DNA from: Spirochaetaceae bacterium
GTDB taxonomy: Bacteria; Spirochaetota; Spirochaetia; Treponematales; Rectinemataceae
Assembly: GCA_026418115.1 (NCBI GenBank)
Contig: JAOABY010000013.1
Coordinates: 1 to 44,865 of the forward strand
Reading direction: 5' to 3'
Length of the DNA stretch: 44,865 nt
Made by a program: the position numbers and the translations under genes
Shown here: piece by piece, positions 1 through 42,150 of the stretch
How positions within the stretch are numbered: position 1 is the first letter of the stretch
How the letters are laid out: each line of letters opens with the position of its first letter
Notes under the pieces: model-generated
Databases searched by the model: none
Seen by the model: only the letters and a program-made list of their open reading frames with translations
What the model was told of the DNA's origin: nothing

Positions 1-203
1 CCATATGCCTGTGCAACCGTCTTGAGTTCTTCCAGGCCGTGTGCGGCCTGGACTTCGGTCATGGCTGACTCATACTGTTCAAGGGACAGAGCATTCTGAA
101 CATATTGTGCAGTGAGAGCATCCGAGAGAGCCTCACGATATTCCTGCAAGGATGGCAACCAGACATTGTTCGAATTATCTGGATTCTTCCTCTCCTGGTT
201 CAT
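1..203 (-). CDS. Unknown short helical protein, 5' part only
   Basis: The gene runs off the left edge; 67 residues are visible, starting MNQERKNPDN. It was recognised because its ATG overlaps the stop codon of the upstream kinase gene by four bases (ATGA), a typical translational coupling. The visible part is hydrophilic. Its second half (ALSLEQYESAM followed by a HGLEEL segment) looks like the short paired helices of SHOCT/DUF1707-type domains, but that is only a resemblance. No signal peptide or membrane segment is visible. A GGGACAGAGC copy at 83-92 lies inside the gene and encodes ALSL. Function unknown. Confidence 0.6.
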   Translation of the reverse strand, partial: MNQERKNPDNSNNVWLPSLQEYREALSDALTAQYVQNALSLEQYESAMTEVQAAHGLEELKTVAQAY

Positions 204-973
204 GGGCTATCCTGTATTACAGTGCCTATATAGGGCCGACCAAAAAGAATATCCAGAAAATTTTCAAGATTTCTTCCATGGGCAAATATTATGCGCAATC
301 CGATGTCTCGCGCTTTTCGTGCAGCAATAGGATCAAATGGTACATTCGCTCCGGGATTCCAATGTTCGCCTGTCATCACGAGCAACCTGTCAAAGGTGAT
401 TCTGTCGAGTGGCCTGGCGTGAGGATTTTTTCTCGGGTCATCATCATGGATCTTCGTAACATTTGACAGGTTAATGACAGAGTCCGCCCCGAAGCGCTCT
501 GCAAGAAGTACCGCATCATAATCGGTCGAGAATCCAGGTTTCCAGCCAGCTCCGACGAGTACCCTCCCTCGCATCTCAATGTCAGCTGTGGGATCAGTAA
601 CCACGGGATCAGGGCAGAGATCTCCGAATACTTCTCGAATCAGCTGGGCGTTCAGTCGGGTAGCCGCAATGCCAATTCTGTCAAATGCGGCATTCATCAA
701 AGCGCTCTCAGTTTGACTGACAGCAGCTCCGTCCCTTCCTGGCTCTGATGAGTCAGACTGACTTCTCTTCTCTCGCTCTGATTTTTCAATGAATGTGCGA
801 TAGGCTTGCTGCCATATTCGTGCAGGAGCGCCTCCACCTACCACAATGATTGCCTTGTGATTTCCTGAATCAAGCCATAGGGACAGAGCTTGCTTAAATG
901 CAATCAGAAATTCTGCATCTGGTCCCTCCTTGGGAGCCAGAATCGAACCACCAAGCGAAATAACCGCAATCAT
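200..973 (-). CDS. Amino-acid-kinase-fold protein, UMP kinase-like
   Basis: Predicted cytoplasmic kinase of the amino-acid kinase fold, closest in pattern to the archaeal-type UMP kinases (UMP + ATP to UDP + ADP). Visible motifs are the N-terminal SLGGSI, the glycine-rich VVGGGAPARIW, FSTDYDAVLLAERFGAD and the late DDDPRKNPHARPLD segment that usually binds the nucleotide. The start is set at the ATG at 971-973, because GGAGG lies five bases before it; an in-frame GTG lies 12 bases upstream. At 257 aa it is about 30 residues longer than the usual family. The excess is a hydrophilic Ser/Glu/Arg-rich insertion after FIEKSEREK, and one dispersed motif copy (726-735) sits in it. A second copy (880-889) encodes ALSL. 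The stop overlaps the start of the next gene by four bases. Confidence 0.75.
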   Translation of the reverse strand: MIAVISLGGSILAPKEGPDAEFLIAFKQALSLWLDSGNHKAIIVVGGGAPARIWQQAYRTFIEKSEREKRSQSDSSEPGRDGAAVSQTESALMNAAFDRIGIAATRLNAQLIREVFGDLCPDPVVTDPTADIEMRGRVLVGAGWKPGFSTDYDAVLLAERFGADSVINLSNVTKIHDDDPRKNPHARPLDRITFDRLLVMTGEHWNPGANVPFDPIAARKARDIGLRIIFAHGRNLENFLDILFGRPYIGTVIQDSP

Positions 974-1073
974 CATTACCTCCACGATCAGTTCAAACCA
1001 AGTGGCTGTCTGAAGCCGGATCTAACAGCGTGCAGGCTTTTTCAGCATTAGCAGACCGGGGACGGAGCAGGGC

Positions 1074-2729
1074 TCAAATAGAAAGTACACTTGTTGTAAC
1101 CCTGAATAGAAGCTCTGGGAGCAGGCTGAAAGCATACTTCCTGTGAACTCTTTCTCCCGGGCGATGGTATTCTCTACCCCATGGACCAATGTTGATTACC
1201 GGCACATCAAGCTTTGGTTTACTATATACAACCAGATCATCCTGGTCGACAGGGCTTAACTCTCTCAGGAAGTTCAAAGAATTACTGGCAATCTCGGGAG
1301 CAATAAAACTCATATCAGAGATACCGGGGAAATAGGGACGGAGCCTTATCGATTCGTTCTGTTCCTTGTTGAATCGCATGACTGTCTCTTTGAGCAAGGT
1401 GAGAAAATCCCGATGCTGCTCAGCATCAACAGAAGAAAGAGCATAGAAAGGCGGTGCGAAACCTACCACTGCACAAGGTGTCTCAAGTGTTGCATAAGGC
1501 AGCATCTCGTGGACTATATAGGCTGTCTGAAGCACCCGGTCTTCGGGATGCAATCTCCGGGCATTCTCTCTGAGCCTCTGCGTGATACCTGGAGCAACTC
1601 GTTCAGCCTTCTCCTGTACTAGCGCAAAATCGATGACTCTTGGCATGTAATTCGGTGCCATCATTTTGGATTGGGTAAGTCTTGAAAACGCAGATGCACG
1701 CTCCTTGAAAAGGGACAGAGCTCCTTCAAGAGAGCGCTCGACGGCCTCCGTTATTTTCGCAAAGGCTTTTTCAGGAGATTTTTCATGGCTGAGCACATTC
1801 ATGGCACAGAATACGTCCGCTGGCATGGTCACGTCATAGCGTGATCTCATTTCACGCAGATAGAGTACAGTTGGTGGAGGCGGTTCCTCTCCTGGCACTA
1901 CAGACCTGCTGTTCAGCAACTCACTATTGCCTTCCATATCTCGGACAAAGAAAGCAGCAGCAAGCGACGGATTGAATCCCTCGAATGGAGCACCAGCATG
2001 GGCTGCCCGGCCCACGAATACGATAAAAGGCAGCAATTTGCTTACTGAACCGCAGAATACAGCTTTTCCCTCTTCTCCATCCTTCGAGTCAACGGCTGCA
2101 TCAAGATTGATTACACATTCAATTTCAATCCCATGATGAAGTGCAAATTCTGAAATCTGAGTACTTGCTGCCTTCATTCCTGCAGATGAACCTTCCTCAT
2201 CAGGTACTGCCAGAAAAAGAATATTGCCTGTTCGATCCGGATTCTGAAGAAAGCGAGAGAGTACAACGATACCGGCTGCAAGGCCGCTTTTCATATCAAG
2301 TAGGCCACGACCAGGCATGAATTCTCCGCTTTGAAGATCCTTGAGCAGCAGCTGCTCAGAAGCAGTCAGATGTTCCTTCCTGGCAAAGTGTGCGATCATC
2401 TTCTCTTCGAGTGCCTGGGGATCGAAAGCAAATGGCTCAAATACCCCATAATCACTCGTATCCACCACATCATAATGCCCAGTAAGCACCACACAGCGCG
2501 TGCCCTTACCTTTGGCCAGGGCAAAAACATTGGCTCGCTGTCTCATGTCTCCTGGAATGGGAATCGATAGAAGCAATTCAGGATTCTTTCTGAAGTACGG
2601 AATCTGCGCCAATACTCGTAGAAGAGTTTCCGGATAGGATACTTCTCCCGCACTTCCTGTTATGCTTGGTGTTTTTACAAGCGCTAGTGCGACCGATTGT
2701 GCATCGTTTAGATCAATAGGTTTTTCCAT
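1074..2729 (-). CDS. M20-family peptidase, RocB-like
   Basis: A 551-aa predicted metallopeptidase of the M20 family, closest to the RocB arginine-utilisation-type subgroup, whose exact substrate is unknown. Metal-site segments are visible in order: GHYDVVD (His about residue 85), RGLLDMKSGLAAG (about 138-150) and PDEEGSSAG (about 175), matching the H, D and EE ligands of di-zinc M20 enzymes. GRAAHAGAPFEG in the middle belongs to the dimerisation lid region. There is no signal peptide, so it is presumably cytosolic. Motif copies at 1335-1344 and 1712-1721 fall inside the gene and encode LRP and ALSL; another lies just after the stop (1059-1068). It follows the acyl-CoA synthetase gene on the same strand after about 295 bp containing a strong hairpin, so co-transcription is unlikely. 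Confidence 0.75.
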   Translation of the reverse strand: MEKPIDLNDAQSVALALVKTPSITGSAGEVSYPETLLRVLAQIPYFRKNPELLLSIPIPGDMRQRANVFALAKGKGTRCVVLTGHYDVVDTSDYGVFEPFAFDPQALEEKMIAHFARKEHLTASEQLLLKDLQSGEFMPGRGLLDMKSGLAAGIVVLSRFLQNPDRTGNILFLAVPDEEGSSAGMKAASTQISEFALHHGIEIECVINLDAAVDSKDGEEGKAVFCGSVSKLLPFIVFVGRAAHAGAPFEGFNPSLAAAFFVRDMEGNSELLNSRSVVPGEEPPPPTVLYLREMRSRYDVTMPADVFCAMNVLSHEKSPEKAFAKITEAVERSLEGALSLFKERASAFSRLTQSKMMAPNYMPRVIDFALVQEKAERVAPGITQRLRENARRLHPEDRVLQTAYIVHEMLPYATLETPCAVVGFAPPFYALSSVDAEQHRDFLTLLKETVMRFNKEQNESIRLRPYFPGISDMSFIAPEIASNSLNFLRELSPVDQDDLVVYSKPKLDVPVINIGPWGREYHRPGERVHRKYAFSLLPELLFRVTTSVLSI

Positions 2730-2978
2730 GGAGCTATTATAGCATATCTGTTCAAAGCCTGGCAGTTGCCGCCTGGCACCTCATCGCGAAACCCTATGAA
2801 TGAAAAAAGAGAAAGTGAAGCTGCGTTTCTGTAACCCAGGGTAAGAAGCAGAAGGGGACGGAGCTTCAAGACTGTCAGGTTCAGCGAAGTGACACTCGTT
2901 TATTTATTGCTCTCTATCGAGCTGCGATATCAAAACCTTGCCTGTAACGGTATACCATTCACGAGTTGCCCGAAGACT

Positions 2979-3016: not shown

Positions 3017-3024
3017 GGCTATTC

Positions 3025-4980
3025 TTACTCAATCGGCAAGGAATACTTTCGCGCTACTACCTCAAGATTATGTTGATTTACAATCATGGATCCTTCCTTG
3101 GTATAGGAATACTCCAGAAGATCCTTGTGAACCTGCGCTGCCTTATGCCTCACGAGTTTCATTGTCGAATTGATGGTTCCATCCTTCTCGCTGAACCCTT
3201 CTTCAATTATCTGAAAGACGGCTGGTATCCATGCATTCTGAACCTGTTTTGCATCTGGATTGCCTTTGAAGCGGTAGAATTCATCGGTGAGGACTTTCAA
3301 GAGATCCTTTGCTGTCTTCACCTGGCGACTCTGTATGAGCCGTCGAATTTTGGTATCCTCGAGAGAGACAAGGGACGTAGCATATTTTTTATGGTCACAC
3401 CATACCATGATTTGATCAAAAACATCTGTTCCCGATGTGATCGCCTCCTCGATCTCTTCCGGGCTATACTTTTCACCATCCTCGGCTATAAGCAGCGCTT
3501 TCTCTCTTCCAACAACCACAAGGAAACCATCTTCATCTATATATCCAAGGTCACCTGTCCAGAGACGCCCACCTCTCAGTGTTTCTGCAGTTGCTTCAGG
3601 GTTTTTATAATAACCTGCCATTACGTTGTCACCGGTGATTGTAATCTGTCCAATAACCCCTCTAGGCAGCTCCGTCCCCTTTTCATCCATAATCTTGCAC
3701 TCGACAGAGGGGGCTATAATGCCTGAAGTTCCATATTTATAGATTCGCGGAATGTTTGATGAAATGACAGGAGCAGCCTCTGTAAGACCATAGCCTTGAT
3801 ACACCGGCACTCCCAGTGCAGCAAAGAAATGCTGCTGTTTTACATCAAGAAGCGCACCTCCGCCCACGCAGAATTTGATAGAATTCCCAAACAGCGATTT
3901 CTTGACTTTATTGAATACGAGAAGCTTTGCTGCAAAATAAGGTACAAAGGCTTTTGCCCTTACCATGATTGAAGGCTTGTGATATCCATCCCCATTCCAT
4001 CGAATACCTGCTTCGATGCCTTTTTTAAAAAGCCATTCGACAAAGCCGCCCTTCTCTTCTATTGCGGCAATGATTTTTTTCATGAAATTGCCGGAAAGAG
4101 AAGGCACGGTCAGAAGGAATATTGGGTTCGATTCTTTCAGATTGATGGGAATATTCCGTAGGGTTGCAATTCCGCCACCTCGAGAGTCGACAAAATACAA
4201 GGAAACACCGCAGAGTAGTGCTGTATAGAGACCTACAGTATGAGCAAATGAATGATCAACCGGCAGGATCAATAAAGTCCTGTAGAACATTGGATTATCA
4301 AACAAAGTAACAGCATCATGACAATTGGCCCAGTAATTCAGATGGGTCAGCATGATTCCCTTTGGATTTCCGGTAGTTCCTGATGTGTATGAAATCGTGA
4401 CAATGTCCTGCTCCCCGATCTCATTCTCCAGCTCATCCAGGCGTTTCTCATAAGTTTTAGTATTCTCAAGAAGCAATCTGCCCGCTGAAAGAACCTTCCG
4501 TAGAGGAATGAACTGATCTTCAGTGATCTTATGTTTTCTTGCCAGGCTCTGTCCCCATTCAACATCATCATCGAGATAGATGATATAGAAGTCCTTGCCG
4601 AGGTTTGCGGCTTTGATGGCTGAGATAACTTTTTCCAGCTGGTTGTGAGTAGTACATATTCCCCTCGCCTCTGAATGCACAAGGCGAAATGGTATTTCTT
4701 CCGCCAGCAGCTTAATGGAGAGCGGAACAGATATGACACCAGCCGAAAGCATTCCCATTTCCGCTATGATCCATTCAGGTGATCCCTCTGCCAGAATAGC
4801 TAATTTGTCACCCTTTTTAATATCGTTACCTATAAGCCATGCAGCAAAACTGCGAGCCGCCCTTCGAGTCTGTCTGAATGTTGTTGGCTGATAACCATTC
4901 TCAGTCTTCTTCAAAGCATACGGGATATCAGGATATTTCACCGCAGCTTCCTTCAACATTGTCAGCACTGTTCGCTTCAT
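3025..4980 (-). CDS. AMP-forming acyl-CoA synthetase (long-chain type)
   Basis: A 651-aa adenylate-forming enzyme: fatty acid + ATP + CoA to acyl-CoA + AMP + PPi. The P-loop-like signature YTSGTTGNPKGI lies around residues 197-208. VYQGYGLTEAAPVIS (A5-type) and LWTGDLGYIDEDGFLVVVGREK (shown here as two blocks, the TGD and the GR segments) follow in the normal order. Length and order match the long-chain FadD/FAA family, so fatty-acid activation is the likely role; chain length cannot be read. ATG at 4978-4980. Two motif copies lie inside: 3669-3678 encodes GTEL and 4546-4555 encodes GQSL. A near copy with one mismatch is at 3372-3381. Confidence 0.85.
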   Translation of the reverse strand: MKRTVLTMLKEAAVKYPDIPYALKKTENGYQPTTFRQTRRAARSFAAWLIGNDIKKGDKLAILAEGSPEWIIAEMGMLSAGVISVPLSIKLLAEEIPFRLVHSEARGICTTHNQLEKVISAIKAANLGKDFYIIYLDDDVEWGQSLARKHKITEDQFIPLRKVLSAGRLLLENTKTYEKRLDELENEIGEQDIVTISYTSGTTGNPKGIMLTHLNYWANCHDAVTLFDNPMFYRTLLILPVDHSFAHTVGLYTALLCGVSLYFVDSRGGGIATLRNIPINLKESNPIFLLTVPSLSGNFMKKIIAAIEEKGGFVEWLFKKGIEAGIRWNGDGYHKPSIMVRAKAFVPYFAAKLLVFNKVKKSLFGNSIKFCVGGGALLDVKQQHFFAALGVPVYQGYGLTEAAPVISSNIPRIYKYGTSGIIAPSVECKIMDEKGTELPRGVIGQITITGDNVMAGYYKNPEATAETLRGGRLWTGDLGYIDEDGFLVVVGREKALLIAEDGEKYSPEEIEEAITSGTDVFDQIMVWCDHKKYATSLVSLEDTKIRRLIQSRQVKTAKDLLKVLTDEFYRFKGNPDAKQVQNAWIPAVFQIIEEGFSEKDGTINSTMKLVRHKAAQVHKDLLEYSYTKEGSMIVNQHNLEVVARKYSLPIE

Positions 4981-5105
4981 GCGCTTTCCTTTGGAAATGG
5001 TATAGATTTGGAAGAAATTTGAATTATGTCATTTCTTGAGGGACAGAGCAAGATATTCATAAATTTTTGAAGACAAAGAAGCATAACTTGCATCATTTGC
5101 CATGT

Positions 5106-5606: not shown

Positions 5607-6455
5607 TCATGCATGGCTGGTTGATTTGCCCAGGATGCTCATATGTACTTGCGGTCTGCCATTTTTCACGGCTAAAATTTCAGCCAATATCGAGATTGCA
5701 ATTTCGTCTGGCGTCTGGGCACCCAGATCCAGGCCAACCGGTGCATATATGCTTGATAGTACATCTTCCTCAATGCCTTCCGCTCGCAATTGCTCAACAA
5801 GCTCAAGTATCTTTCGTTTTGCTCCCAGCAGCCCCAGATATGCCAGTTTCTTTCGTAGGCAGCATCTGATTGCTCTTTGATCGGTAATTGCAGTAGCAAT
5901 TATTACATAGCAAGATTCATCCAACGAGGCTTTCTCTATTGAGGCAATAAGATCGTTTTCGCAATATAATCTCGCAGCATAAGGAAATTTCTCAACATTC
6001 ACGAGGTCACTTCGTTCATCCACAATTTCAAGCTGAAAATCCAGATTTGCAGCACAGGAGGCAATTGCTCGTCCTACATGTCCTCCTCCTATTATCACAA
6101 GCCGGGGAAGTGGCCTGAAAACATCACAATAGATCTCTATCTTGCCTGTACTTGCAAATTGCTCTTTATCCTGTAACGTATTCATCTGACTTCCAGTCAC
6201 CGGATTGGCTACATCGAGGCGTACCAGGTTATGCTTTCCGGTTTGAATGCACTTCCTCGCAATATCGACAGCCTGTGCTTCGGCCAAGCCTCCACCGATA
6301 GTTCCGTACGCAATTCCATCTTGCACCACAATCATCTTGCCAGAATTCCGAGGGACGGAGCCTTCGGCTTTGATTATGGATACAACGCAAAAAGGTATCC
6401 TTTTCAGCGCCAGTTGCTGCATCGTCTCAATGAAGGTCAGTGTGTTTTCTCCCAT
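5607..6455 (-). CDS. XdhC/CoxI-family protein
   Basis: A 282-aa member of the XdhC/CoxI family, which binds molybdenum cofactor and helps its sulfuration and insertion into xanthine-dehydrogenase-type hydroxylases. The N-terminal XdhC domain contains VSIIKAEGSVPRNSGKMIV and GTIGGGLAEAQA. The C-terminal Rossmann part shows VIIGGGHVGRAIA and GLLGAKRK. The start is set at the ATG at 6453-6455, preceded by AAGGGA seven bases away; a longer in-frame reading to 6617 has no family resemblance. No molybdenum hydroxylase gene is in the window. Motif copy 6352-6361 encodes the GSVPR of the conserved N-terminal segment; another (6530-6539) is upstream of the start. Confidence 0.85.
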   Translation of the reverse strand: MGENTLTFIETMQQLALKRIPFCVVSIIKAEGSVPRNSGKMIVVQDGIAYGTIGGGLAEAQAVDIARKCIQTGKHNLVRLDVANPVTGSQMNTLQDKEQFASTGKIEIYCDVFRPLPRLVIIGGGHVGRAIASCAANLDFQLEIVDERSDLVNVEKFPYAARLYCENDLIASIEKASLDESCYVIIATAITDQRAIRCCLRKKLAYLGLLGAKRKILELVEQLRAEGIEEDVLSSIYAPVGLDLGAQTPDEIAISILAEILAVKNGRPQVHMSILGKSTSHA

Positions 6456-6592
6456 AATCCATCCCTTCTGTAATTCAAACCTAGAAAAATGCAACAAATC
6501 GATTATTAGCTGGGTGAACAAACTATCCTGCTCTGTCCCTGAGCATCGCTGAGCATCTCTTCTGGGATATCCTATCCATTCTTTCGATTTCC

Positions 6593-8012: not shown

Positions 8013-8692
8013 AGCTCTTTCTCCGCCCAAGAAATTCGAACAGCGGCGTGCTGGCATTTGACCTCGATAACACATTGTATAATAACCCTGGCTACATTGC
8101 CTTCCAGGAGGAATCCCAGTTATCCAGGCTTGCCAGCTTCTTAGGGACGGAGCTTGAACAAGCCCGACAAATGGTGCAAGAAAAAAAAGCCCAGCGAGGA
8201 AGAGATGGCTTGCCTCCAACAAGCCTTGCCACCATCTTCAGGGAGTTTGGAATTTCTCAACAGCAGATTGTAGCATGGAGAAACTCAGAGCTCCGTCCCT
8301 CTGATTGGTTATCCCGAGACCCCAAGCTGCGCCATTCTATTATTTTGCTTGCAACACAATATCGTCTTGCACTTCTCACCAACAACCCACACAAGGTGGC
8401 GGAAGAAAGTTTGCAGGCTCTAGGAGTAGATGATCTTTTCCAGACAATAATTGCTCTTGATGATGTGGGTTTTTCCAAGCCTCACAGGGCCCATTTCGAC
8501 AAGCTAATGGAAGCATTTGGAGGCCAGCCAGAAGATTATTTTGTTATCGGAGACCGATTCGACATTGACATCAAACCAGCACTCGATGCAGGCATGAGTG
8601 GCATACTGGTCGATGAAGTAGGAGATATCTATCTCCTTCCCGATTTGCTGCTGGAGGGACGGAGCTCGGGGGATCTGCCCAATTCTCTCTGA
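8009..8692 (+). CDS. HAD-superfamily hydrolase, pyrimidine 5'-nucleotidase-like
   Basis: A 227-aa haloacid-dehalogenase-fold phosphatase. The catalytic DLDNTLYNN motif (about residues 18-26) carries both aspartates, LLTNNPHK supplies motif II, SKPHRAHFDKL the motif III lysine, and VIGDRFDIDIKPA the motif IV acids. The DxDNTLY form and alpha-helical cap resemble pyrimidine 5'-nucleotidases. Overlap with prs suggests a role in nucleotide or sugar-phosphate turnover (inference). Three motif copies fall inside this short gene: 8144-8153 (GTEL), 8290-8299 (LRP) and 8656-8665 (GRS), each in a variable surface region. It ends 24 bp from the convergent phosphate symporter gene. Confidence 0.8.
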   Translation: MKLFLRPRNSNSGVLAFDLDNTLYNNPGYIAFQEESQLSRLASFLGTELEQARQMVQEKKAQRGRDGLPPTSLATIFREFGISQQQIVAWRNSELRPSDWLSRDPKLRHSIILLATQYRLALLTNNPHKVAEESLQALGVDDLFQTIIALDDVGFSKPHRAHFDKLMEAFGGQPEDYFVIGDRFDIDIKPALDAGMSGILVDEVGDIYLLPDLLLEGRSSGDLPNSL

Positions 8693-8716: not shown

Positions 8717-10390
8717 CTAGCGCTCCTGCCGCTTTCCCAGTTCTCCAGCTATAGCATACAGACAGTCGCCTATCTTTTCGAAATGTCGTACTATGTCGAT
8801 ATAGAGCAGCTCGGTCCTTGCATCAGCACCAGCGTTGAGTCGCTTTCTGGCCATTTTTTTGAGCTCTTTCTTGAATCTGTCAATTCTGTTCTCATGCTCA
8901 CCCGCCATGCCGAATTCGATTGCATCCAGACCCTTATCCAGATTCGATGAAATAAAAAGATAGAAATCCTTGACCGCCTCTCCATATGGCCTCAGGGACA
9001 GAGCAGCATCTTCATCAAACACGAGCGCTTTTCTGGATTTCTTGGTCCATAGCTCAGCTATCGCCAGGCATTCATCTGAAGCATTCTCCAGTTCTGACAC
9101 AATCTGCATCTTGCCCAGAACTCTTCCCCTCAGAGATTCGCTCATGTCTGCAGACTGCACCTTCATCAGAAACCCAATAAGAGCCTCACGCATATCATCC
9201 AGGTACTGCTCTTCCTTTTCAAACCATCCAAGCTTCGTTCTGGCATCATTCATATCGTTGCTGAGCACCATCTCCAGAGTTGCTTCAAACATGTGCTTGC
9301 ATCTCAGCGCCATTTCCCGAATCTCAGCTCTAGCCTGGAAGAGCGACAGTTCGGGTGTCGGGTAGAGGGACGGAGCAATATATACCATCCTCTGTTCTTC
9401 TCCACCCCTGTCCTTGACAATTTTCTCCAGCAGAACCTGGAATTTCGTGAGGAAAGGAGGAAACAGAATTGTATTTATGCCATTGAAAAGAGTATGCAGA
9501 CTGGCAATCGCCACGCCAATTGCTCCGTCCCCATTGCCATATCCCGACACAAGCTGCACCAGATTCAGGAAAGGTCTGAACAGCAGCATCGCCCATGCCG
9601 AACCAATGACATTGAACAGCACGTGCGCCCATGCAGCCCTTCTCGCTGTTGTCCCGGTGTTAAGCGAAGCCAGCACTGCATCGATTGTAGTGCCAATATT
9701 GGCACCAATGGTAAGCGCAGCCGCAATCTCAAAACTGAGGATGCCCTTGACCGCCAGCGGAATAATCATTGCCGTCGCTGCACTGGAAGAATGGATCACC
9801 ATTGTAAGCAATGCACCTGCTACAACACACATGAGCAGGGACAGAGGCTGGCGTTCAGGCGAGAATCTGCCCAATACTTCCAACAGCTCAGGTGCAGGCT
9901 TGGGCACTGCGGTTGCGATATACTCCAGCCCCAGGAAGAGGAACCCCAACCCCATCAACGCAATACCCGCATCCTTCAGCTTTTCTGATTTTTTCTCCAT
10001 GAGAGAAAGCAGATAGCCCAGCCCTGTCAGCGGAATTGCTGCTGCCAGAATATTGAATTTAGCAATACCAGCCGCAGCTATGATCCATGCCGTGATTGTG
10101 GTACCTATGTTTGCCCCGATTATTACTCCGATACTCTGCTGCAACGTAAGCAGACCGCTATTCGCCAGCGCAACAGTCATCACGGTAGTTGCAGAACTCG
10201 ATTGTATGATGATGGTAACAAGACAGCCTGTTAGCACTGCGATAATGCGATTTCCGGTGATGAGCTGGAGTATCTTCTGCAGGCGTTCCCCTGCAGCACG
10301 CTGGAGTCCATCACTGAGCAGAGTCATGCCATACATGAAAATGGCCAGACTGCCGCCCAGACGGAGCAGTATCGAAAACAGTGGCGTCAC
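8717..10390 (-). CDS. Na+/phosphate symporter, NptA family with PhoU-like tail
   Basis: A 557-aa inner-membrane Na/Pi cotransporter of the PNaS family. Duplicated QSSSATT-type signatures are visible (TIIQSSSATTVMTVALA, about residues 60-76, and MVIHSSSAATAMIIPLA, about 195-211), each near a GANIGTT motif. From about residue 340 on it is soluble, helical and charged, like PhoU. GTG at 10388-10390 is preferred because GGGAG lies seven bases before it; an ATG at 10426 would add 12 residues but has no ribosome site. Motif copies: 8995-9004 (ALSL), 9367-9376 (APSL) and 9522-9531 (GDGA, in a loop between membrane segments). A near copy is at 9838-9847. Confidence 0.85.
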   Translation of the reverse strand: MTPLFSILLRLGGSLAIFMYGMTLLSDGLQRAAGERLQKILQLITGNRIIAVLTGCLVTIIIQSSSATTVMTVALANSGLLTLQQSIGVIIGANIGTTITAWIIAAAGIAKFNILAAAIPLTGLGYLLSLMEKKSEKLKDAGIALMGLGFLFLGLEYIATAVPKPAPELLEVLGRFSPERQPLSLLMCVVAGALLTMVIHSSSAATAMIIPLAVKGILSFEIAAALTIGANIGTTIDAVLASLNTGTTARRAAWAHVLFNVIGSAWAMLLFRPFLNLVQLVSGYGNGDGAIGVAIASLHTLFNGINTILFPPFLTKFQVLLEKIVKDRGGEEQRMVYIAPSLYPTPELSLFQARAEIREMALRCKHMFEATLEMVLSNDMNDARTKLGWFEKEEQYLDDMREALIGFLMKVQSADMSESLRGRVLGKMQIVSELENASDECLAIAELWTKKSRKALVFDEDAALSLRPYGEAVKDFYLFISSNLDKGLDAIEFGMAGEHENRIDRFKKELKKMARKRLNAGADARTELLYIDIVRHFEKIGDCLYAIAGELGKRQER

Positions 10391-11752: not shown

Positions 11753-12659
11753 ATTTGGTCTTGGCAAAGGTCTTGGAGCACTCATTCCGGAACATCAGCA
11801 CTATTTCGAGCAGACACAGACCGAGAAGGATCAGGCTGCTACTGTAAGAATGGTGCCCATCGAAGCTCTGTCCCCCAATCCTGATCAGCCCCGGCGTTCC
11901 TTCCCCGAGGAATCGCTTGAGGAACTCGCAGAATCGATTCGCAGGCATGGTCTGCTGCAACCACTGATCGTTCACGAAAGCAGCCCCGATAAGTATGTCA
12001 TCATCGCTGGCGAGCGCCGCTATAGAGCAGCACGGATGGCAGGCCTGCTGGAACTTCCTGTCATTGTCAGCAATCAGCAGCATGACCGTCATCTGGAAAT
12101 CTCTCTCGTTGAGAATATTCAGAGGGAGAATCTCAACCCCATTGAGGAAGCTCAAGCCTATCTCAGACTGATGGAGCTCACGGGAGCCACACAGGATGCG
12201 ATAGCCTCCATGGTAGGGAAGAGCAGGGCTACGGTTGCGAATGCCATTCGACTGCTGAAACTTCCCGAAGACATGCAGGAAGCTGTCAAACAAGGCCGAA
12301 TCAGCCCGGGTCATGCTCGATCGCTGCTTTCAATTGAAGACCGGCTTGCCAGACAACGCCTGTATCAGGCCATAGTCGATGGCAATCTTTCCGTCAGGGA
12401 GGCCGAAGCAAAAGCCCAACAGCTCCTCGCCGGTTCGGAATCCAGCCGTACGAAGAGACAACCGCCCCGTAGTCAGACATCGGATCATGCATCTGATGCT
12501 CTTGATCCTGCGCTACGAGCTCTCAGAGATAAGCTGATCGAATTGTTTGGCACAAAAGTCGAAGTATCCGGAACTCAGGAGACGGGCACTATCAAGATCC
12601 ATTATTTTTCTCTGGATGACCTGCAGAGAATATATGAAGTGCTGCACATCGAGGAATAA
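11745..12659 (+). CDS. parB: Chromosome-partitioning protein ParB/Spo0J
   Basis: A 304-aa centromere-binding CTPase. Order: N-terminal KFGLGKGLGALIPE segment, the ParB box with SPNPDQPRRSF and the CTP-binding GERRYRAARMAGL (about residues 90-102), the helix-turn-helix around DAIASMVGKSRATVANAIR, a polar linker and a C-terminal dimerisation domain. GTG start overlapping parA by eight bases indicates coupling. No TGTTTCACGTGAAACA-type parS site was seen in the window. Motif copy 11865-11874 encodes ALSP in the start of the ParB domain. Confidence 0.92.
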   Translation: MAKFGLGKGLGALIPEHQHYFEQTQTEKDQAATVRMVPIEALSPNPDQPRRSFPEESLEELAESIRRHGLLQPLIVHESSPDKYVIIAGERRYRAARMAGLLELPVIVSNQQHDRHLEISLVENIQRENLNPIEEAQAYLRLMELTGATQDAIASMVGKSRATVANAIRLLKLPEDMQEAVKQGRISPGHARSLLSIEDRLARQRLYQAIVDGNLSVREAEAKAQQLLAGSESSRTKRQPPRSQTSDHASDALDPALRALRDKLIELFGTKVEVSGTQETGTIKIHYFSLDDLQRIYEVLHIEE

Positions 12660-23109: not shown

Positions 23110-23383
23110 GCTCTGTCCCTCCCTCTGCCCCTACCCTGCATCTGCCCCAGGCTCCCCCTCGCTCCGAAGTCCTCGCCGCCGGCTCTATCCACTCTCATCT
23201 GCCGGCAATGCCGAGCTCCGTCCCTGCATACACCGACCCCTACGGCGCGGCTCCGGTCTTCTCCGCTACCCCCACGAGGCCGTGGCCGTATCGCCTTCAC
23301 CAACCTATCTTGCAGCTCCGTCCCTCTTCTGGAATCTTGCCCCACGCTCTGGGGACAGAGCTTCCATCTTTCAGCTCTGTCCC
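23110..23383. repeat. Cluster of five dispersed-motif copies
   Basis: Within the 451-bp gap between enolase and the VIT gene lie copies at 23110-23119 (A form), 23215-23224 (G), 23315-23324 (G), 23352-23361 (A, opposite strand) and 23374-23383 (A). This is the densest group in the window. The gap shows no convincing gene: the short in-frame readings are Pro/Ser/Ala-rich and look like translated repeat DNA. Confidence 0.8.
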
Positions 23384-24927: not shown

Positions 24928-25023
24928 AAGCTCCGTCCCCATTATCCCGATATTTGCAGCCCCGCCACCAAAAGGGGGGCTTGCTGGCGCTGTGCACCTG
25001 CAGCCTCACCAGACAACACCAAC

Positions 25024-30626: not shown

Positions 30627-31820
30627 ATGACATATGATTTTGATGCCCCAGTCGACCGCCGCGGAACCGCAAGCCTGAAGTGGCTCTCCCCTCCTGGCCA
30701 TGAGCATGTGCCTGATGTTATTCCGCTCTGGGTGGCAGATATGGATTTTGCCTGTGCTCCTGCAATTGCAGAGGCACTGCAGAAAAGAGCAGATCACCCA
30801 GTATATGGTTATACTGTAAGACCTGATGGGTATTACGAGGCCTTCATCTCGTGGATGGGCCGGCGCAATCACTGGAACATTGCAAGATCCTGGATTACCC
30901 ATGCACCAGGAGTGGTGCCGGCCTTGAATCTGGCAATCCTCGCCTGTAGCCATCCAGGTGACGGAATCGTTATCCAGCCGCCTGTGTATTACCCTTTCAT
31001 GGCCGGCATACGAAACAATGGCCGGCGATTGCTGGAGAATCCGCTGGTTATCCGCAATGGCATCTACAGTATGGATTTTGAGCAACTCGAGGCGATGCTT
31101 GATAATCCGGCCAACCGCGCCAGGATGCTGATTCTCTGCAGCCCCCATAACCCGGTGGGCCGCGTCTGGAGATCCAGCGAGCTTGCAAAGCTTGTCGATA
31201 TCTGCGTCGCACGAGGTGTTGTCATTGTTTCGGATGAGATACACTCTGACATCATTCTGGGGACAGAGCCTCATGTCTGCACAGCCACTGCTGCAGCAGC
31301 AGCCTCCGAGTGGACCATCACGCTGACAGCACCAAATAAGACCTTCAACATCGCTGGGCTACAGATTGCCAATGTGATCATCCCCAACCCGCGACTCCGC
31401 GCGGCCTACAACGCCCAGGTAGAGAATCTGGGGCTCGGTCTCGGCAATCTGTTTGGCATCGTTGCGCAGGAAGCTGCCTATCGCCATGGTGAATCCTGGC
31501 TGGAAGAGCTGCTCGTCTATCTGAAAGGCAACGAACAGATGGTGCGCAGCTTTCTAGCTGAGCGCCTTCCCCGTATTCAGGCTTATCCACTCGAGGGAAC
31601 CTATCTGATGTGGCTGTATTTCGGAAATCTCGGGATGGACGATATGGCGCTCAGGGAGTTCTTGCTCAGCCGCGCGCGAATCTGGCTGGATGAGGGCACC
31701 AAATTCGGCACAGGAGGTTCAGGTTTCATGAGACTCAATCTTGCCTGCCCTCGGGCGAGGCTTCGCGAAGCTCTGGAAAGACTTGAAGCTGCATTGGTGG
31801 ACGCAGGTATGGCAAGGTGA
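30627..31820 (+). CDS. PatB/MalY-type PLP beta-lyase (aminotransferase fold I)
   Basis: A 397-aa cystathionine/cysteine-S-conjugate beta-lyase: cystathionine to homocysteine, pyruvate and ammonia through 2-aminoacrylate. The N-terminal DRRGTASLKW and PLWVADMDFACAPAI are signature of PatB/MalY. The PLP lysine is in TAPNKTFNIAGLQIAN (about residue 235), the aspartate in VSDEIHSDI, and CSPHNPVGRVW precedes it. The start ATG at 30627 is set by the N-terminal match; no strong ribosome site, consistent with coupling to ridA. Motif copy 31260-31269 encodes GTEP just after the active-site aspartate strand. Confidence 0.9.
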   Translation: MTYDFDAPVDRRGTASLKWLSPPGHEHVPDVIPLWVADMDFACAPAIAEALQKRADHPVYGYTVRPDGYYEAFISWMGRRNHWNIARSWITHAPGVVPALNLAILACSHPGDGIVIQPPVYYPFMAGIRNNGRRLLENPLVIRNGIYSMDFEQLEAMLDNPANRARMLILCSPHNPVGRVWRSSELAKLVDICVARGVVIVSDEIHSDIILGTEPHVCTATAAAAASEWTITLTAPNKTFNIAGLQIANVIIPNPRLRAAYNAQVENLGLGLGNLFGIVAQEAAYRHGESWLEELLVYLKGNEQMVRSFLAERLPRIQAYPLEGTYLMWLYFGNLGMDDMALREFLLSRARIWLDEGTKFGTGGSGFMRLNLACPRARLREALERLEAALVDAGMAR

Positions 31821-34983: not shown

Positions 34984-34990
34984 GTGTGGC

Positions 34991-37427: not shown

Positions 37428-37457
37428 TCACCAAAGGGCAGATCTCATATTTACTGT

Positions 37458-37875: not shown

Positions 37876-37906
37876 GCAGACGCGGCCTATTGTGCCTTAC
37901 CCTCAC

Positions 37907-39211
37907 TCAAATCGTCAAGAGAGTCTGTGCAGATTCCCCAAGAGGCAGCACCGCCCTGGGAAACAGGCCATGAGCCCATGCGAGGAACAATCCAAAGTTG
38001 ACAGCCGGAATCCCTGCTTCATCGAGTCGTGCCAGCTGCGTCTGCATGCGTCGCCGGGTAATCATGCAGCCCCCACACACTACTGCAAGATCGAAATCAT
38101 CCTCGATGGATACGTCTCTGACTTCTCGAAGCATGGTCAATGCCACCTGTCTGCCTGTGCGCTCGGCGAGCAGGCGGGGTATTTTCACGGTGGCTATATC
38201 CTCATGAGTCCTGGAATGCGTGCACGCCTCAATGCCGAGCAGGCGAATCGGTTTGGTGCCAGCAGTCTGCCGGACAGCATCGCGCTGGAGATTCGCAAGC
38301 CTCTCAAGTCCGGCTCTGAAGAGGCTCAGCTCCCCCTTGTGTCGTGCAAAAAGCAGGGAAAATGAAGTCAGGGCTTGTTCCGGAGGCAGGATGGCAGCGA
38401 CTTCCCGGAAAGCCTGGCTGTCTGTGATGACCAGGCGAGGGCTTCTCAGCAGAGCGGACAATGCTCGTGCAAGTTCTGAGGGCTGCACTACCGTACATGA
38501 ACAACCTCTGTCGAGCGCCTCGCGTAGCACCTGTACCTGCGGCAGGATGAGCCTGCCCTTGGGGGCAGCTGCATCTATGGGGGTTACAAGCACAAGATGA
38601 TCACCTTGCTCGACGAGACCTTCCAGTAGTCCGGTCTCTCGGCTGCACGAAAGCCTGTTCTCGTTGAGCTTGCCCGAAGACGCTGCTCTGGCGAACATGG
38701 AACGCAGTTCGCTCACCCCGGTGCCAGACTTGGTGCTCACTCTGGCAACGCCGAGAAGCGGTGAAAGGAGATACCTGCCTGCCTCCAGTTCCGCAATCCA
38801 CGCTTCCTTCCGCGGATGGGCAGGGAGGTCGGCATGAGTTGCCGCTATTGCCAGAGGGACAGAGCTTGCTCCAAGCTTCTCAAGCGCTTCGTATTCCGCT
38901 GCATGCGGTGGCTCATGAAGGGGTGTGACAAAAAGCCCAATATCAGTCCACGCAAGCCGCTCCAGGCTTTTCCTGACCCGCAACATGCCAAGCTCTCCTT
39001 CATCATCAAGTCCAGCAGTATCGGTGAGCACAACAGGACCCAGTTCTCCAAGTTCCATAGCTTTTGATACAGGATCGGTCGTCGTGCCCGGCCGATCCGA
39101 TACTATGGCGATATTCCTCTCAGCCAGTGCATTGATCAGCGAGCTTTTTCCGGCGTTCCTGATACCAAAAAGAGTTATGTGCAATCTTTCTGATGATGGT
39201 GTGGAATTCAT
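37907..39211 (-). CDS. hydF: [FeFe]-hydrogenase maturation GTPase HydF
   Basis: A 434-residue scaffold protein that carries the 2Fe precursor and delivers it to the hydrogenase. G1 loop GIRNAGKSSLINALAE (about residues 16-31), G3 DTAGLDDEGE, a dimerisation middle domain and a C-terminal Fe-S domain with the CTH of EACTHSRTHEDIA and CGGC of VVCGGCMITRR. The ATG at 39209-39211, with AGGAGG seven bases upstream, overlaps the hydE stop by four bases. A longer reading to 39361 runs back into hydE. Motif copy 38856-38865 encodes SSVP. Confidence 0.93.
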   Translation of the reverse strand: MNSTPSSERLHITLFGIRNAGKSSLINALAERNIAIVSDRPGTTTDPVSKAMELGELGPVVLTDTAGLDDEGELGMLRVRKSLERLAWTDIGLFVTPLHEPPHAAEYEALEKLGASSVPLAIAATHADLPAHPRKEAWIAELEAGRYLLSPLLGVARVSTKSGTGVSELRSMFARAASSGKLNENRLSCSRETGLLEGLVEQGDHLVLVTPIDAAAPKGRLILPQVQVLREALDRGCSCTVVQPSELARALSALLRSPRLVITDSQAFREVAAILPPEQALTSFSLLFARHKGELSLFRAGLERLANLQRDAVRQTAGTKPIRLLGIEACTHSRTHEDIATVKIPRLLAERTGRQVALTMLREVRDVSIEDDFDLAVVCGGCMITRRRMQTQLARLDEAGIPAVNFGLFLAWAHGLFPRAVLPLGESAQTLLTI

Positions 39212-40278
39212 GCTCCATCCTCCTGATGAGCTGCTGCTGGCATGTGAAGAGGCATATCGGGTTTCCCATTGCTGCGCCTTGCGTGTGATGGTGCATCGCC
39301 ACGGCCAAACGAGAGCTCCTTGCCAATCGAGGCGACACGCACAGCCAGACATCCAATACACCGCAGTCCATCTTCATCGAGGCAGATCTTGCCTGGATAG
39401 ATCTCATAGTCCTTCTTGAAGTCAACCGGCCCAATGTTGGGCATGAGCACATTGGCTCCCGCAGCCAGCATTCGCTCTCTGCCATCCGGAGCTATTGAAC
39501 CAGCAGCGGTGGTAGCTGGCATATTGGCATAAGGCAATGCGAGCCTGAGCATGGCAGTCGCCTGGAGTGCTGGTTCGAGCCCGAGGCATGATTCCTTTCC
39601 TAAAGGAGTGTTGGGATGAGGGATAAAGGGCCCCACCCCCACCATGTCCAGATCGAGTGATCGAGCCAGTGCAACATCCCGTTCAAGCCGTTCATGATCA
39701 TGGCCAGGCAATCCAGTCATGAAGCCTGAGCCGACCTCGAAATCGAGCGCCCGCAGAGCCTCGAGCGCATCGAGACGCATTGCAAGCTCTGTCCCCCTCA
39801 GCATGCGGTACAGTTGTTCATCGGAAGTCTCAAAGCGAAGCAGGTAGCGCTCTACTCCTGCCTGACGCAGCCTGGCATATTCATGCCTTCGAAAGGTGCC
39901 AAAGCTGAAGGCCAGTGCCACCTCATCTCCCAGTGCTGCCCGAATGCGCTCAGCAAGCCTTGCAAGCCGCTCTGCACCATATTCGGGATCCTCGCCGCCC
40001 TGCAGCACAAAGCTCCGCAAACCTCGTGCATGGGCTTTCTGCAACATTGCAATGACCATTTCTTCAGGCATACGATACCGTCGCACCCTGCCATTGCTGC
40101 GCCGCAGCCCGCAGTACAGGCAATTTTGCCTACAATAGTTGGTGACCTCAACAAGACCTCGTACATGCACCCTGTTCCCGTGGATTGTTCTGCACAGCGC
40201 ATCAGCACGGGTACGCAAGTCTTCATCACTCTCAGGTACCAGATCTCTGGTCTGCACAAAAAGCATGCCGGTGCTCAT
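39208..40278 (-). CDS. hydE: [FeFe]-hydrogenase maturase HydE
   Basis: A 356-aa radical SAM enzyme that takes part in making the dithiomethylamine-bridged 2Fe centre. The SAM cluster cysteines are in NYCRQNCLYCGLRRSN (about residues 47-62), and GVGPFIPHPNTPLG and GANVLMPNIGP are family hallmarks. The start overlaps the hydG stop (ATGA) and the end overlaps hydF (ATGA), so the three genes form one coupled unit. Motif copy 39786-39795 encodes GTEL. Confidence 0.93.
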   Translation of the reverse strand: MSTGMLFVQTRDLVPESDEDLRTRADALCRTIHGNRVHVRGLVEVTNYCRQNCLYCGLRRSNGRVRRYRMPEEMVIAMLQKAHARGLRSFVLQGGEDPEYGAERLARLAERIRAALGDEVALAFSFGTFRRHEYARLRQAGVERYLLRFETSDEQLYRMLRGTELAMRLDALEALRALDFEVGSGFMTGLPGHDHERLERDVALARSLDLDMVGVGPFIPHPNTPLGKESCLGLEPALQATAMLRLALPYANMPATTAAGSIAPDGRERMLAAGANVLMPNIGPVDFKKDYEIYPGKICLDEDGLRCIGCLAVRVASIGKELSFGRGDAPSHARRSNGKPDMPLHMPAAAHQEDGA

Positions 40279-41759
40279 AGGTAGACATCCCGTGCACCTG
40301 CACCGATCTCTGCAAGCCCCTGCCGTGTTCTGACACGCGTAGGCTCATCGGGAAGCTGCAGGATTATTTCTTCCATTGCGCAAAGCCCCTCTGCTCTGAG
40401 GCTCTCGTCAGCAAAATCCTCAAGATATTCAAGGAAGGTAAACAGCGCATTCGGTTCACAGAAACGCTTGATGAGGCCTGGTTTTGCAAGATCCATGAAA
40501 TCGGCACCAACCCTGCCTTTGCGATAGCATCCTGTGCAGAACGAGGGCACATAGCCCTGCCGTGTGAGCGCAGCGACCACTTCCTGTAGAGTCCTATGGT
40601 CGCCGAGCTGGAACTGGCTTCCCGATGTGTCGTCTGCATGGGAGCGTGCCTGTTCGTTCGATGTGCTCTGCGCTTGCAGCTCCATACCAACCTTCGCAGC
40701 ATCGGCATAGGCACCAGGATTGGTGCGTGAGCCGGCTGAGATCTGGCTTACTCCATAACGAAACAGCTCGTTGCGCAGGGCTTCAGATTCCCTTGTAGAA
40801 AGGATAATCCCGGTATATGGCATGGCAAGGCGCAGAATGGCTACCAGGTACCTGAAATCGTCGTCACTTACCGGCATGGGGACAGAGCTCGAAGCAGGGG
40901 CTCCCTCTGCGGGTTCAATTCTCGGCACGCTGACCGTATGCGGGCCACAGCCAAACCGCTCTTCCAGGTGCTGTGCATGGCGCAGCAGGCCGAGCACCTC
41001 AAAGCGCCAATCTCCCAACCCGAACAGTGCGCCAATACCCACATCCTCGATCCCTGCTTCCATTGCCCTGTCCATGACCTCGAGTCTCCAGAGGTAATCC
41101 GCCTTGGGCCCCGCGCGATGGTAGGCTCTATACAGCTCAGGATCATAGGTTTCCTGAAAACAGGCATAGGTTCCGATCCCTGCACCCTTGAGCTTTTTGA
41201 ATCCCTCGACATCAAGCGGCGCGACCTCGACGTTGATTCGCCGAATCGATGCCACTTTCCCTGTTCGTGGCGAAGGCTCCCTTACTGAGTAGATTGCCTT
41301 GATCATTTCGACCACATGATCTGGCGTCGCCTCCGCGCTTTCTCCACAGAGCAAGAGAATGCGCTTGTGCCCTTCCCGCAGGAGCGCGCGGGTTTCAGCC
41401 TTGATTTCCTCCAGGCTGAGCGAACGGCGGTGCAGAGATGCATTGGGTGCACGGAAGGCGCAATAGAGACAGTCATTCATGCAGCGATTGCTGAAGTACA
41501 GCGGTGCAAAGAGGACCATGCGCCTGCCATAGATGAGTTCCTTGACCTTGCCGGCGGCTTCAAGCACCCTGGCTCGAAGGCCTGGTTCATTGACATTCAG
41601 CAGCAATGCAACTTCTTCAAGATCAAGGCCCTGTAAGCGCAGAGATTTCGAAATAATTGCAGCTGCAGTAGCAGGATCAGGTTCTCCCTGTGCCAGCAGT
41701 CTCCTGAGTGAATCGGCATCCAGCCAATCAGAAAGATTCCCCTGAGCCTTTGACATCAT
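40275..41759 (-). CDS. hydG: [FeFe]-hydrogenase maturase HydG
   Basis: A 494-aa radical SAM tyrosine lyase that releases CO and cyanide for the hydrogenase 2Fe centre. The SAM-cluster segment is NRCMNDCLYCAFRAPN (about residues 91-106), and the auxiliary C-terminal cluster is in SFCTGCYRKGRVGADFMDLA. AAGGAG lies four bases before the first ATG and seven before the second (41756), so the second may be the true start. Motif copy 40879-40888 encodes SSVP in a loop. The start overlaps the upstream regulator gene by 32 bases. Confidence 0.93.
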   Translation of the reverse strand: MMSKAQGNLSDWLDADSLRRLLAQGEPDPATAAAIISKSLRLQGLDLEEVALLLNVNEPGLRARVLEAAGKVKELIYGRRMVLFAPLYFSNRCMNDCLYCAFRAPNASLHRRSLSLEEIKAETRALLREGHKRILLLCGESAEATPDHVVEMIKAIYSVREPSPRTGKVASIRRINVEVAPLDVEGFKKLKGAGIGTYACFQETYDPELYRAYHRAGPKADYLWRLEVMDRAMEAGIEDVGIGALFGLGDWRFEVLGLLRHAQHLEERFGCGPHTVSVPRIEPAEGAPASSSVPMPVSDDDFRYLVAILRLAMPYTGIILSTRESEALRNELFRYGVSQISAGSRTNPGAYADAAKVGMELQAQSTSNEQARSHADDTSGSQFQLGDHRTLQEVVAALTRQGYVPSFCTGCYRKGRVGADFMDLAKPGLIKRFCEPNALFTFLEYLEDFADESLRAEGLCAMEEIILQLPDEPTRVRTRQGLAEIGAGARDVYL

Positions 41760-42012
41760 CGTGCTCCTTATATGCCGTGAGTACGGACTTGACCTTTACC
41801 CCCGGCAATCTGCCGATCCTGCCGGTGAGAGCGCCGATGGTATCCGTGGTGCCTTCCACTACCAGCGAGATGAGCGCAATACCTTTGTCCCGCATGGGCA
41901 GGCCGAGGCGAGCATCGATGATCTGGCTGTATTCAGAAAGGATGGTGTTGAGACGAGGGACAGAGCTCTGCTCCGTCACTACGATTGCAACAATGCCTAT
42001 CCGCTTTTCCAT
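41728..42012 (-). CDS. TM1266-type [FeFe]-hydrogenase system regulator
   Basis: A 94-aa ferredoxin-fold (NikR C-terminal/ACT-like) protein of the TM1266 family, regularly found with hydEFG. IGIVAIVVTEQSSVPRLN, ARLGLPMRDKGIALISLVVE and LTGRIGRLPGVKVKSVL are the three family blocks. It has no DNA-binding domain, so its action is unclear. GAGGAT precedes the ATG at 42010-42012. Motif copy 41957-41966 encodes SSVP; with a mismatched reverse copy at 41970-41979 it makes an imperfect hairpin. Confidence 0.9.
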   Translation of the reverse strand: MEKRIGIVAIVVTEQSSVPRLNTILSEYSQIIDARLGLPMRDKGIALISLVVEGTTDTIGALTGRIGRLPGVKVKSVLTAYKEHDDVKGSGESF

Positions 42013-42150
42013 CGGTACATCCTCAGGATCGGGGGATGGTGGTGGGCTGACAGCCCAGTATGGTTCCCCGGGAAGAGGTGGCAGCACGCTTCTGACTGCA
42101 ATCGCAGAACGCACCCAGCTCTGTCCCTCAGAACTTTGATTCGTAAAAGT

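Follow-up and report, generated by a model that had tools for sequence, protein, structure and literature searches.

Short GGGACRG-family motifs form local halos around genes for RAYT-type transposases in spirochaetes

The stretch analysed here, called the window throughout, is the whole of contig JAOABY010000013.1 (44,865 nucleotides; assembly GCA_026418115.1) from a Spirochaetaceae bacterium of the Rectinemataceae. It carries parA and parB genes, a gene for a predicted transposase of the RAYT type, and 37 exact copies of the word GGGACRGAGC between positions 83 and 42127, 22 on the forward strand and 15 on the reverse (Table 1). The first-pass annotation, made from the letters of the window, had reported this count and strand split, and both are confirmed; in 100 dinucleotide shuffles the expectation is 0.27 copies and the largest count 3. 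The degenerate position is A in 19 copies and G in 18. The preceding base is A or G in every copy and the following base is G in none, and all 37 match the extended form RGGGACRGAGCH. Outside these two positions (-1 and +10) the flanks have no clear consensus and no longer common block, contrary to the possibility, raised at first, that the copies were parts of longer homologous blocks. There is no surplus of inexact copies: RGGGACRGAGC at up to two mismatches has 76 matches in the window, the 37 exact ones included, against 42 expected in total. Placement in both coding and intergenic DNA was also correctly annotated, 32 of the 37 sites lying inside mechanically selected open reading frames (ORFs) and the rest outside. 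Copies inside genes occupy all six frames, which argues that the constraint acts on DNA and not on protein. Below, C44 is the window's contig, G000 its own genome, and other G numbers are relatives. Forms of the word carry variable 3' letters and include GGGACAGAGC, GGGACGGAGC, GGGACAGAGG, and GGGACAGACC.

The predicted transposase belongs to Pfam family Y1_Tnp (E 1.2e-16). Its best NCBIfam match is NF047646, REP_Tyr_transpos (E 1.5e-20), at 73.6 bits against a cut-off of 80; this is the best NCBIfam family for all four proteins searched, of which the G041 protein alone, at 84.0 bits, exceeds the cut-off. Among 22 aligned sequences, His62 and His64 (the HUH motif), Tyr122, and Asn126 are invariant, and Pro127 is present in at least 90%, in agreement with a Y-x-x-x-N-P signature. 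The AlphaFold model (pLDDT 92.6) has as its best match in PDB entry 4er8, TnpA-REP with a hairpin of a repetitive extragenic palindrome (REP), at E 3.1e-9, TM about 0.74, and rmsd 5.9. From these family, residue, and model matches, we call the putative product a RAYT-type Y1 HUH transposase. A Pfam scan of ten proteins from a second motif cluster, on contig C64, found another Y1_Tnp gene (C64:68799-69476) among housekeeping genes for topoisomerase subunits, DNA polymerase I, and others. The two RAYTs are paralogues with 51% identity, and they are the only RAYT matches in this genome.

Over the whole genome (2.17 Mb in 141 contigs), the motif occurs 112 times and the reversed pattern 17 times. 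The two RAYT contigs hold 81 of the 112 copies, 37 on C44 and 44 on C64, and contig C22 holds a further 11. All 44 copies on C64, of which 40 are inside ORFs, fall between 54.6 and 74.0 kb; the first 54.6 kb holds none. The motif is not genome-wide. It forms local halos and is near background elsewhere in the genome. For the cluster at the end of C22, contigs from three relatives gave no synteny link to the window RAYT locus among the matches listed.

The association with RAYT genes recurs well beyond this genome. Among 58 genomes of the order, the window's own included, several have a large excess of motif over reversed control (312 to 11, 205 to 26, 180 to 6, 189 to 6, and 83 to 2), many others have counts near the control, and 26 have RAYT matches. 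De novo discovery of 9-mers around RAYT genes found that other genomes use GGGACRGAGG, GGGACAGACC, and other variants. A contig scan returned 359 loci encoding RAYT relatives, of which we examined the best 80; all but two have a spirochaete in the title, and those two say just "bacterium". The top enriched 9-mer is in the family GGGACRG[AT][GC] at 59 of these 80 loci, and at 48 of the 63 that are at least 10 kb long. It is never the top 9-mer in 15 control blocks of 20 kb each, all taken from one genome; the nearest known RAYT is about 25 kb away for one block and at least 45 kb away for the other 14. With kb bins pooled, counts within 10 kb of RAYTs come to 661 for the commonest variant at each locus and 3 for the reversed control. 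Where long contigs were profiled, the halo is densest at the gene and fades over roughly 20-40 kb. In a 300-kb stretch of G048, the 20 kb on either side of the RAYT contain 37 of 54 sites, and beyond 50 kb no 10-kb bin has more than 1. Another G048 contig has two site peaks, one at each of its two RAYTs. By hand count, 44 of the 60 GGGACAGAGCTC sites in G048 are within 20 kb of one of its five RAYTs. Immediately upstream of the gene, a same-strand GGGACRG lies within 150 nt of the gene match at 61 of 76 loci (0.095 expected per locus; the four loci with less than 200 nt upstream are left out), and an opposite-strand copy at 9 of 76. These anchor copies span 43-139 nt from the RAYT, and in 58 of the 61 the core ends at 43-94 nt.

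The variable 3' letters of the motif follow RAYT lineage. The commonest variant is AGC at 40 loci, AGG at 23, TGC at 4, ACC at 4, and others at 8, with 79 of the 80 loci having any. On a tree of 85 RAYTs, 63 of them labelled after omission of loci whose commonest variant had fewer than four copies, labels change 12 times against a shuffled mean of 23.2, and 0 of 200 shuffles gave a value as low, a clustering to which near-copies among the RAYTs contribute. A single genome with five RAYT loci shows the letters differing from locus to locus: ACC 30 and AGC 5; ACC 16 and AGC 3; AGC 17; AGC 12 and ACC 3; AGC 5.

DNA uptake sequences of Neisseria and the Pasteurellaceae are exact short words that occur genome-wide, on both strands, in coding and non-coding DNA, and originate by point mutation. 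The first-pass annotation had likened the window's motif to them, and had also suggested a restriction-modification target or a Chi-type recombination site. All three readings predict a genome-wide spread, and the local halos do not bear them out; the early expectation that counts elsewhere might prove near random is correct outside the few clusters, which are themselves enriched. The likeness to uptake sequences survives in part, because each site appears to be held individually by a site-specific force; the exact word, both strands, all frames, the absence of a near-miss surplus, and point-mutation origin are shared. Were competence machinery to prefer motif-bearing DNA, it would raise the motif everywhere, whereas here several variants occur in one genome, each at its own loci, and the motif stays near a transposase gene and disappears when that gene does. 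Of the competence genes that the annotation proposed to look for, the ComEC family is present in 18 and the DprA family in 19 of 20 genomes searched, the window's own included. Both, however, also occur in G001, G005, and G007, relatives without a RAYT in which the sites decay, and therefore do not explain the pattern. We consider an uptake sequence very unlikely. A restriction or Chi-type site, although compatible with a short exact word in both orientations, is less credible still. Against it stand the local distribution, the different variants at different loci of one genome, and the lack of the strand polarity of Chi or KOPS sites: the window has 22 and 15 copies, and orientation around RAYTs is balanced (166/134/134/136), so that a proposed check for strand skew gave none.

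Relatives with and without a RAYT can be compared at one place, the tRNA-Asn/parE locus of the window's genus, where GGGACRGAG[CG] was counted within 10 kb. Genomes whose RAYT is free of stops have 40 sites in 16.2 kb (G000), 22 in 20 kb (G006), and 13 in 10.5 kb (G009), and G002, with a RAYT broken by four stops, has 31 in 20 kb. Those with no RAYT have 11 in 20 kb (G007), 10 in 20 kb (G001), and 4 in 15.9 kb (G005); the reversed control gives 0-1. No RAYT match was found in G007, G001, or G005, either in the assemblies (93, 71, and 79% complete) or at the syntenic place. Identity to G006 is alike for G009 (0.83), G007 (0.82), G001 (0.83), and G005 (0.82). Of the G006 sites, G009 keeps 35 of 48, and the RAYT-less G007, G001, and G005 keep 13 of 43, 16 of 39, and 4 of 23. 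The sites that these three genomes do have are nearly all present in G006 (13/14, 16/16, and 4/4, respectively), and therefore look like relics, with hardly any gains. For 16 sites common to G006 and the more distant G002, G009 retains all 16, while G007 retains 7 of 16, G001 9 of 14, and G005 3 of 14; the lost sites mostly differ by one to three substitutions. Retention with versus without a RAYT gives a Fisher value of 4.6e-5, pooled over related genomes. A divergence gradient around the RAYT would point to local recombination; none is evident in the pairs G006/G009, G006/G007, and G006/G001, which gives no support for frequent import of the block. More than any other result, retention at this one locus points to the RAYT, or to something that was lost along with it, as what holds the sites.

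Binding signals for chromosome domains, such as parS, matS, SlmA, and Noc sites, offer another comparison. A signal bound by a host protein, with RAYT genes as mere bystanders, could account for sites that are domain-limited, derived by substitution, and conserved in position within genes, and the parA and parB genes in the window would suit it. We regard it nevertheless as quite unlikely, because halos follow RAYTs to their various locations and are sparse at a syntenic locus that lacks just the RAYT, because variants track the RAYT tree, and because most of the examined RAYTs have a copy immediately upstream.

Sites are also held at orthologous positions in other alignments. Syntenic halo pairs keep 16 of 20 sites (pair identity 0.78), 14 of 20 (0.83), 2 of 3 (0.89), 5 of 6 (0.78), 13 of 14 (0.84), and 13 of 18 (0.75), where permuted-motif controls in the same alignments kept 9-43%. 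At the window locus, three of five aligned sites are kept against G002 at 71% identity (1335, 3669, and 4546), compared with 3.3% of any 10-mers, and the one aligned site is kept against G008. At kept sites the degenerate A/G may switch, as expected if a recognized word rather than an exact string is held, and sometimes the last letter changes too. In each of the seven pairs, the flanks of kept sites fall short of the mean identity of the pair. Most bins within 20 nt of shared sites show gap openings at about 2-4 times the background rate, but there are 0 at +2 to +5. The lower identity and more frequent indels that adjoin sites could reflect loosely constrained DNA as well as local instability.

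The alignments also bear on how sites originate. The first-pass annotation had offered a mobile micro-repeat as one alternative; in such a scheme, a RAYT would copy the 10-12-mer and insert it as a unit, as a miniature REP. A transposase does appear to be involved, REPs are thought to be mobilized by RAYTs (PMC6006769, PMC8049555; papers are cited here and below for the parts of them that were covered), and the raised rate of gap openings near sites would fit. So would one motif-bearing insert: a ParE-like topoisomerase subunit in the C64 cluster (C64:73137-75332, or L044:13137-15332, reverse strand) has about 74 extra amino acids at residues 405-479, a region with three motif copies that is uncovered by the relatives' close matches listed. 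Across 235 site comparisons in six pairs, both directions, however, 182 sites were shared, 38 differed by ungapped substitution, and 15 involved gaps, with no clean 10-12-nt insertion in any. Gap runs at compared sites were 1-6, with one of 17 and one of 20 in the motif-bearing row. When proteins encoded in the C64 cluster are aligned, many copies fall in ungapped conserved stretches, for example PVEVLKAEIACL[RGQS]FSLL against EGKS; others fall in length-variable stretches or an insert, and some have no aligned relative. Protein and DNA alignments together rule against an origin by micro-insertion, since the compared copies are mostly not inserted units and differ mainly by substitution. There is no hairpin signal either: the mean folding energy of 50-nt segments at motifs (RNA parameters) is within 1.1 kcal/mol of random, with a standard deviation of about 4. 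A mobile micro-repeat is, in our judgment, unlikely.

Spacing shows a further regularity. Motif neighbours at most 60 nt apart are on the same strand in 135 cases and on opposite strands in 20, and 133 of the 135 same-strand pairs are at least 14 nt apart, 111 of these in the 18-47-nt bins. Tandem duplication was considered as the source of most such pairs and rejected, because a likeness of 60% or more is reached in only 30 of 133 spacer pairs; the mostly unrelated spacers also speak against the micro-repeat. In the IS200/IS605 family, Y1 enzymes cleave at two sites of the same strand, and by analogy the close same-strand pairs may possibly be paired sites for a Y1 dimer. Short arrays of motif copies were seen in two places, one at G041:C1:780272-780428 with spacings in multiples of 21 nt, and one upstream of the RAYT at locus L127 with units of about 30 nt.

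Taken from these comparisons of sequence, our favoured reading, to which we give a probability of roughly three in four, is that the motif is a recognition site, probably for nicking of single-stranded DNA, of the resident RAYT, gained by point mutation and kept while a linked RAYT persists. The RAYT protein would bind and cleave the motif on single-stranded DNA. New sites would arise in place by point substitution, in host genes and in the gaps between them, on both strands. A force that is limited to cis and requires the RAYT would keep them, and once the RAYT is absent they would decay, mostly by one to three substitutions.

Several observations weigh against this reading. No member of the motif family is the top 9-mer at 21 of the 80 RAYT loci. 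In G041, by hand count, only 22 of 69 GGGACAGAGC sites lie within 20 kb of the three RAYT matches; this genome has site clusters with no RAYT found nearby (G041:C1:3250366-3255328 with 8 sites, and 676533-698215 with 11), perhaps former RAYT sites, and one RAYT match with no cluster. Within the window, no RAYT accompanies the sub-cluster at 20-25 kb. Some alignments show poor retention: C64 and G002 keep 1 of 4 sites, C44 and G004 keep 0 of 2, G000 and G006 share 0 of 2, and the 2 of 3 kept between G048C7 and G040C130 is not significant. At the tRNA-Asn/parE locus, the three genomes that lack a RAYT are relatives of one another and could go back to a single loss, so that the pooled Fisher value does not come from independent events; the standing of G002 as outgroup rests on identity alone; and G002 keeps its sites beside a RAYT with four stops, though the genome has a second RAYT match. 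Finally, the two RAYTs of the window's genome have AGC, but those most closely related to them have AGG, and something beyond RAYT lineage may therefore set the variant; the RAYT tree offers no explanation for what looks like a parallel switch in the C44 and C64 halos.

Two candidates may be named for the force that would keep the sites: host selection on RAYT action in cis, or a transmission bias favouring RAYT-linked, motif-bearing DNA. That dozens of sites which look redundant are each retained speaks, in our view, for a per-site transmission bias limited by linkage, while the absent divergence gradient lends such a bias no support. In its full form, which we put forward tentatively and think rather less probable than its negation, a domesticated RAYT and the surrounding sites born by point mutation would constitute a diffuse selfish neighbourhood with linkage-limited drive. 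When the RAYT acts on single-stranded DNA, for instance through nicks that promote the transfer or recombination of strands with the motif, the sites would raise transmission of the linked chromosome block, the RAYT gene included, and would thereby spread and persist.

The nearest described systems are REPtrons, in which a RAYT (TnpA-REP) is associated with REPs or with REPINs (PMC6006769, PMC8266576, PMC8049555). Shared with them are a RAYT-family Y1 HUH transposase, a gene-specific cognate sequence that co-varies with the protein, as RAYT and REP co-evolve (PMC6006769, PMC3733652, PMC8049555, PMC8266576), and a cognate copy beside the RAYT gene. In E. coli, too, REPIN number is linked to RAYT presence (PMC8049555). 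However, REPs are palindromes of 20-40 nt, many with a GTAG-type foot, mostly intergenic, dispersed, and thought to spread by copying (PMC6006769, PMC8266576, PMC8049555), and REPINs are inverted pairs (PMC8049555). The motif here is a non-palindromic 10-12-mer that lies mostly inside ORFs, clusters around the RAYT in place of genome-wide dispersal, has predominantly same-strand close neighbours, differs between relatives mainly by substitution, and is held at orthologous positions; motif logos contain no GTAG or GTGG foot. In one further known system, REP-type repeats are clustered rather than dispersed, but these are GTAG palindromic REPs, and the covered parts of its description report neither positional conservation nor dependence on a RAYT. 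A second relative is TIRYT, or TnpA-Y1 subclass 2.1, whose flanking inverted repeats share GGGG[AT][CG]A[CG] (PMC3733652, PMC6006769), a consensus that fits GGGGACAG of our motif. A G at -1 before GGGACRG is present in 61% of AGC, 76% of AGG, and 68% of ACC copies, so GGGGACAG and GGGGACGG are common; the A-form fits the GGGGWSAS core of PMC3733652 and the G-form does not. In subclass 2.1 the median protein length is 238 aa and a helix-turn-helix lies at the C terminus (PMC3733652, PMC6006769), whereas the RAYTs we aligned are about 160-190 aa, and scans of five, the window's included, found Y1_Tnp and no helix-turn-helix family. Nor is there an inverted flanking pair: of 70 loci, only 3 have an opposite-strand copy in the 300 nt downstream, and 11 of 67 have one in the 500 nt downstream, whereas a same-strand upstream copy is the rule. 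No halo around TIRYT is described in the covered parts of PMC3733652 and PMC6006769, and none of the present kind in those of PMC6006769, PMC3733652, PMC8049555, and PMC8266576. Literature matches to the motif string were unrelated by title, among the matches listed, and no literature was found joining DNA uptake sequences with spirochetes; for tyrosine transposases together with spirochaetes, the literature found was PMC3733652 and a Pseudomonas genome paper. We have not found transposase-linked marking of a chromosome neighbourhood described in the parts covered.

Positions of all window features are collected in Table 1. Five of the copies form a sub-cluster (23110-23383, 275 nt) that is flanked by the enolase and VIT1 genes; two of the five make up an inverted pair, at a distance of 22 nt. 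Other words were seen at some RAYT loci elsewhere. Around a divergent RAYT relative at L143 (G051:C82:68001-88000), 20 kb of DNA contain 56 occurrences of CCTGGCACC (with AACCTGGCA), perhaps a halo of the same sort built on an unrelated motif. The locus L219 (JAISMB010000135.1) lacks GGGACRG; CAGACCTCG occurs there nine times, and AGGTCTGAC and AGGTCAGAC occur eight times each. At the RAYT locus L186 / L127 (G032:C1), AGGAACTGG occurs 17 times in 20 kb, in addition to the motif. G049 has 28 RAYT matches, many with stops, which we label an IS-like expansion; it has only 9 copies of the window motif (6 reversed), and the one locus examined there has another word, GGGACAGAC/ACAGACACT.

Table 1. 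The RAYT gene and the motif sites of the window, with strand and basis.
Feature	Position	Strand	Basis
RAYT-type Y1 HUH transposase gene (predicted), 161 aa	5106..5591	+	ORF 5067-5591; start 5106 by homology
Anchor motif copy, same strand, 56 nt upstream of RAYT start	5040..5049	+	motif search
Motif site	83..92	+	motif search
Motif site	726..735	-	motif search
Motif site	880..889	+	motif search
Motif site	1059..1068	+	motif search
Motif site, kept at syntenic place in G002 and G008	1335..1344	+	motif search, alignment
Motif site	1712..1721	+	motif search
Motif site	2855..2864	+	motif search
Motif site, kept in G002	3669..3678	-	motif search, alignment
Motif site, kept in G002	4546..4555	-	motif search, alignment
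Motif site	6352..6361	+	motif search
Motif site	6530..6539	-	motif search
Motif site	8144..8153	+	motif search
Motif site	8290..8299	-	motif search
Motif site	8656..8665	+	motif search
Motif site	8995..9004	+	motif search
Motif site	9367..9376	+	motif search
Motif site	9522..9531	-	motif search
Motif site, not kept in G004	11865..11874	-	motif search, alignment
Motif site	12747..12756	+	motif search
Motif site	12829..12838	-	motif search
Motif site	20032..20041	+	motif search
Motif site	21314..21323	+	motif search
Motif site	21511..21520	+	motif search
Motif site, enolase/VIT1 sub-cluster	23110..23119	-	motif search
Motif site, enolase/VIT1 sub-cluster	23215..23224	-	motif search
Motif site, enolase/VIT1 sub-cluster	23315..23324	-	motif search
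Motif site, enolase/VIT1 sub-cluster, inverted pair with 23374	23352..23361	+	motif search
Motif site, enolase/VIT1 sub-cluster, inverted pair with 23352	23374..23383	-	motif search
Motif site	24930..24939	-	motif search
Motif site	26643..26652	+	motif search
Motif site	31260..31269	+	motif search
Motif site	38856..38865	+	motif search
Motif site	39786..39795	-	motif search
Motif site	40879..40888	+	motif search
Motif site	41957..41966	+	motif search
Motif site	42118..42127	-	motif search

RAYTs are domesticated transposases whose benefit to the cell is unsettled in the covered parts of the cited literature. In the spirochaetes described here, the apparent target of a RAYT can be read from the genome, its letters vary by lineage as a natural specificity code, and absence of the RAYT accompanies decaying site sets, so that what RAYTs do becomes directly testable. 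The findings suggest that a transposase-linked force can shape codons over tens of kb, mainly by substitution, in housekeeping genes, among them those for topoisomerase, DNA polymerase I, and hydrogenase maturation, and they bear on how short repeated words in genomes are to be interpreted. If the drive interpretation were true, host genes would join an element without anything being inserted, and the halo would stand apart from both mobile repeats and uptake signals, as a genetic element of a categorically new kind.

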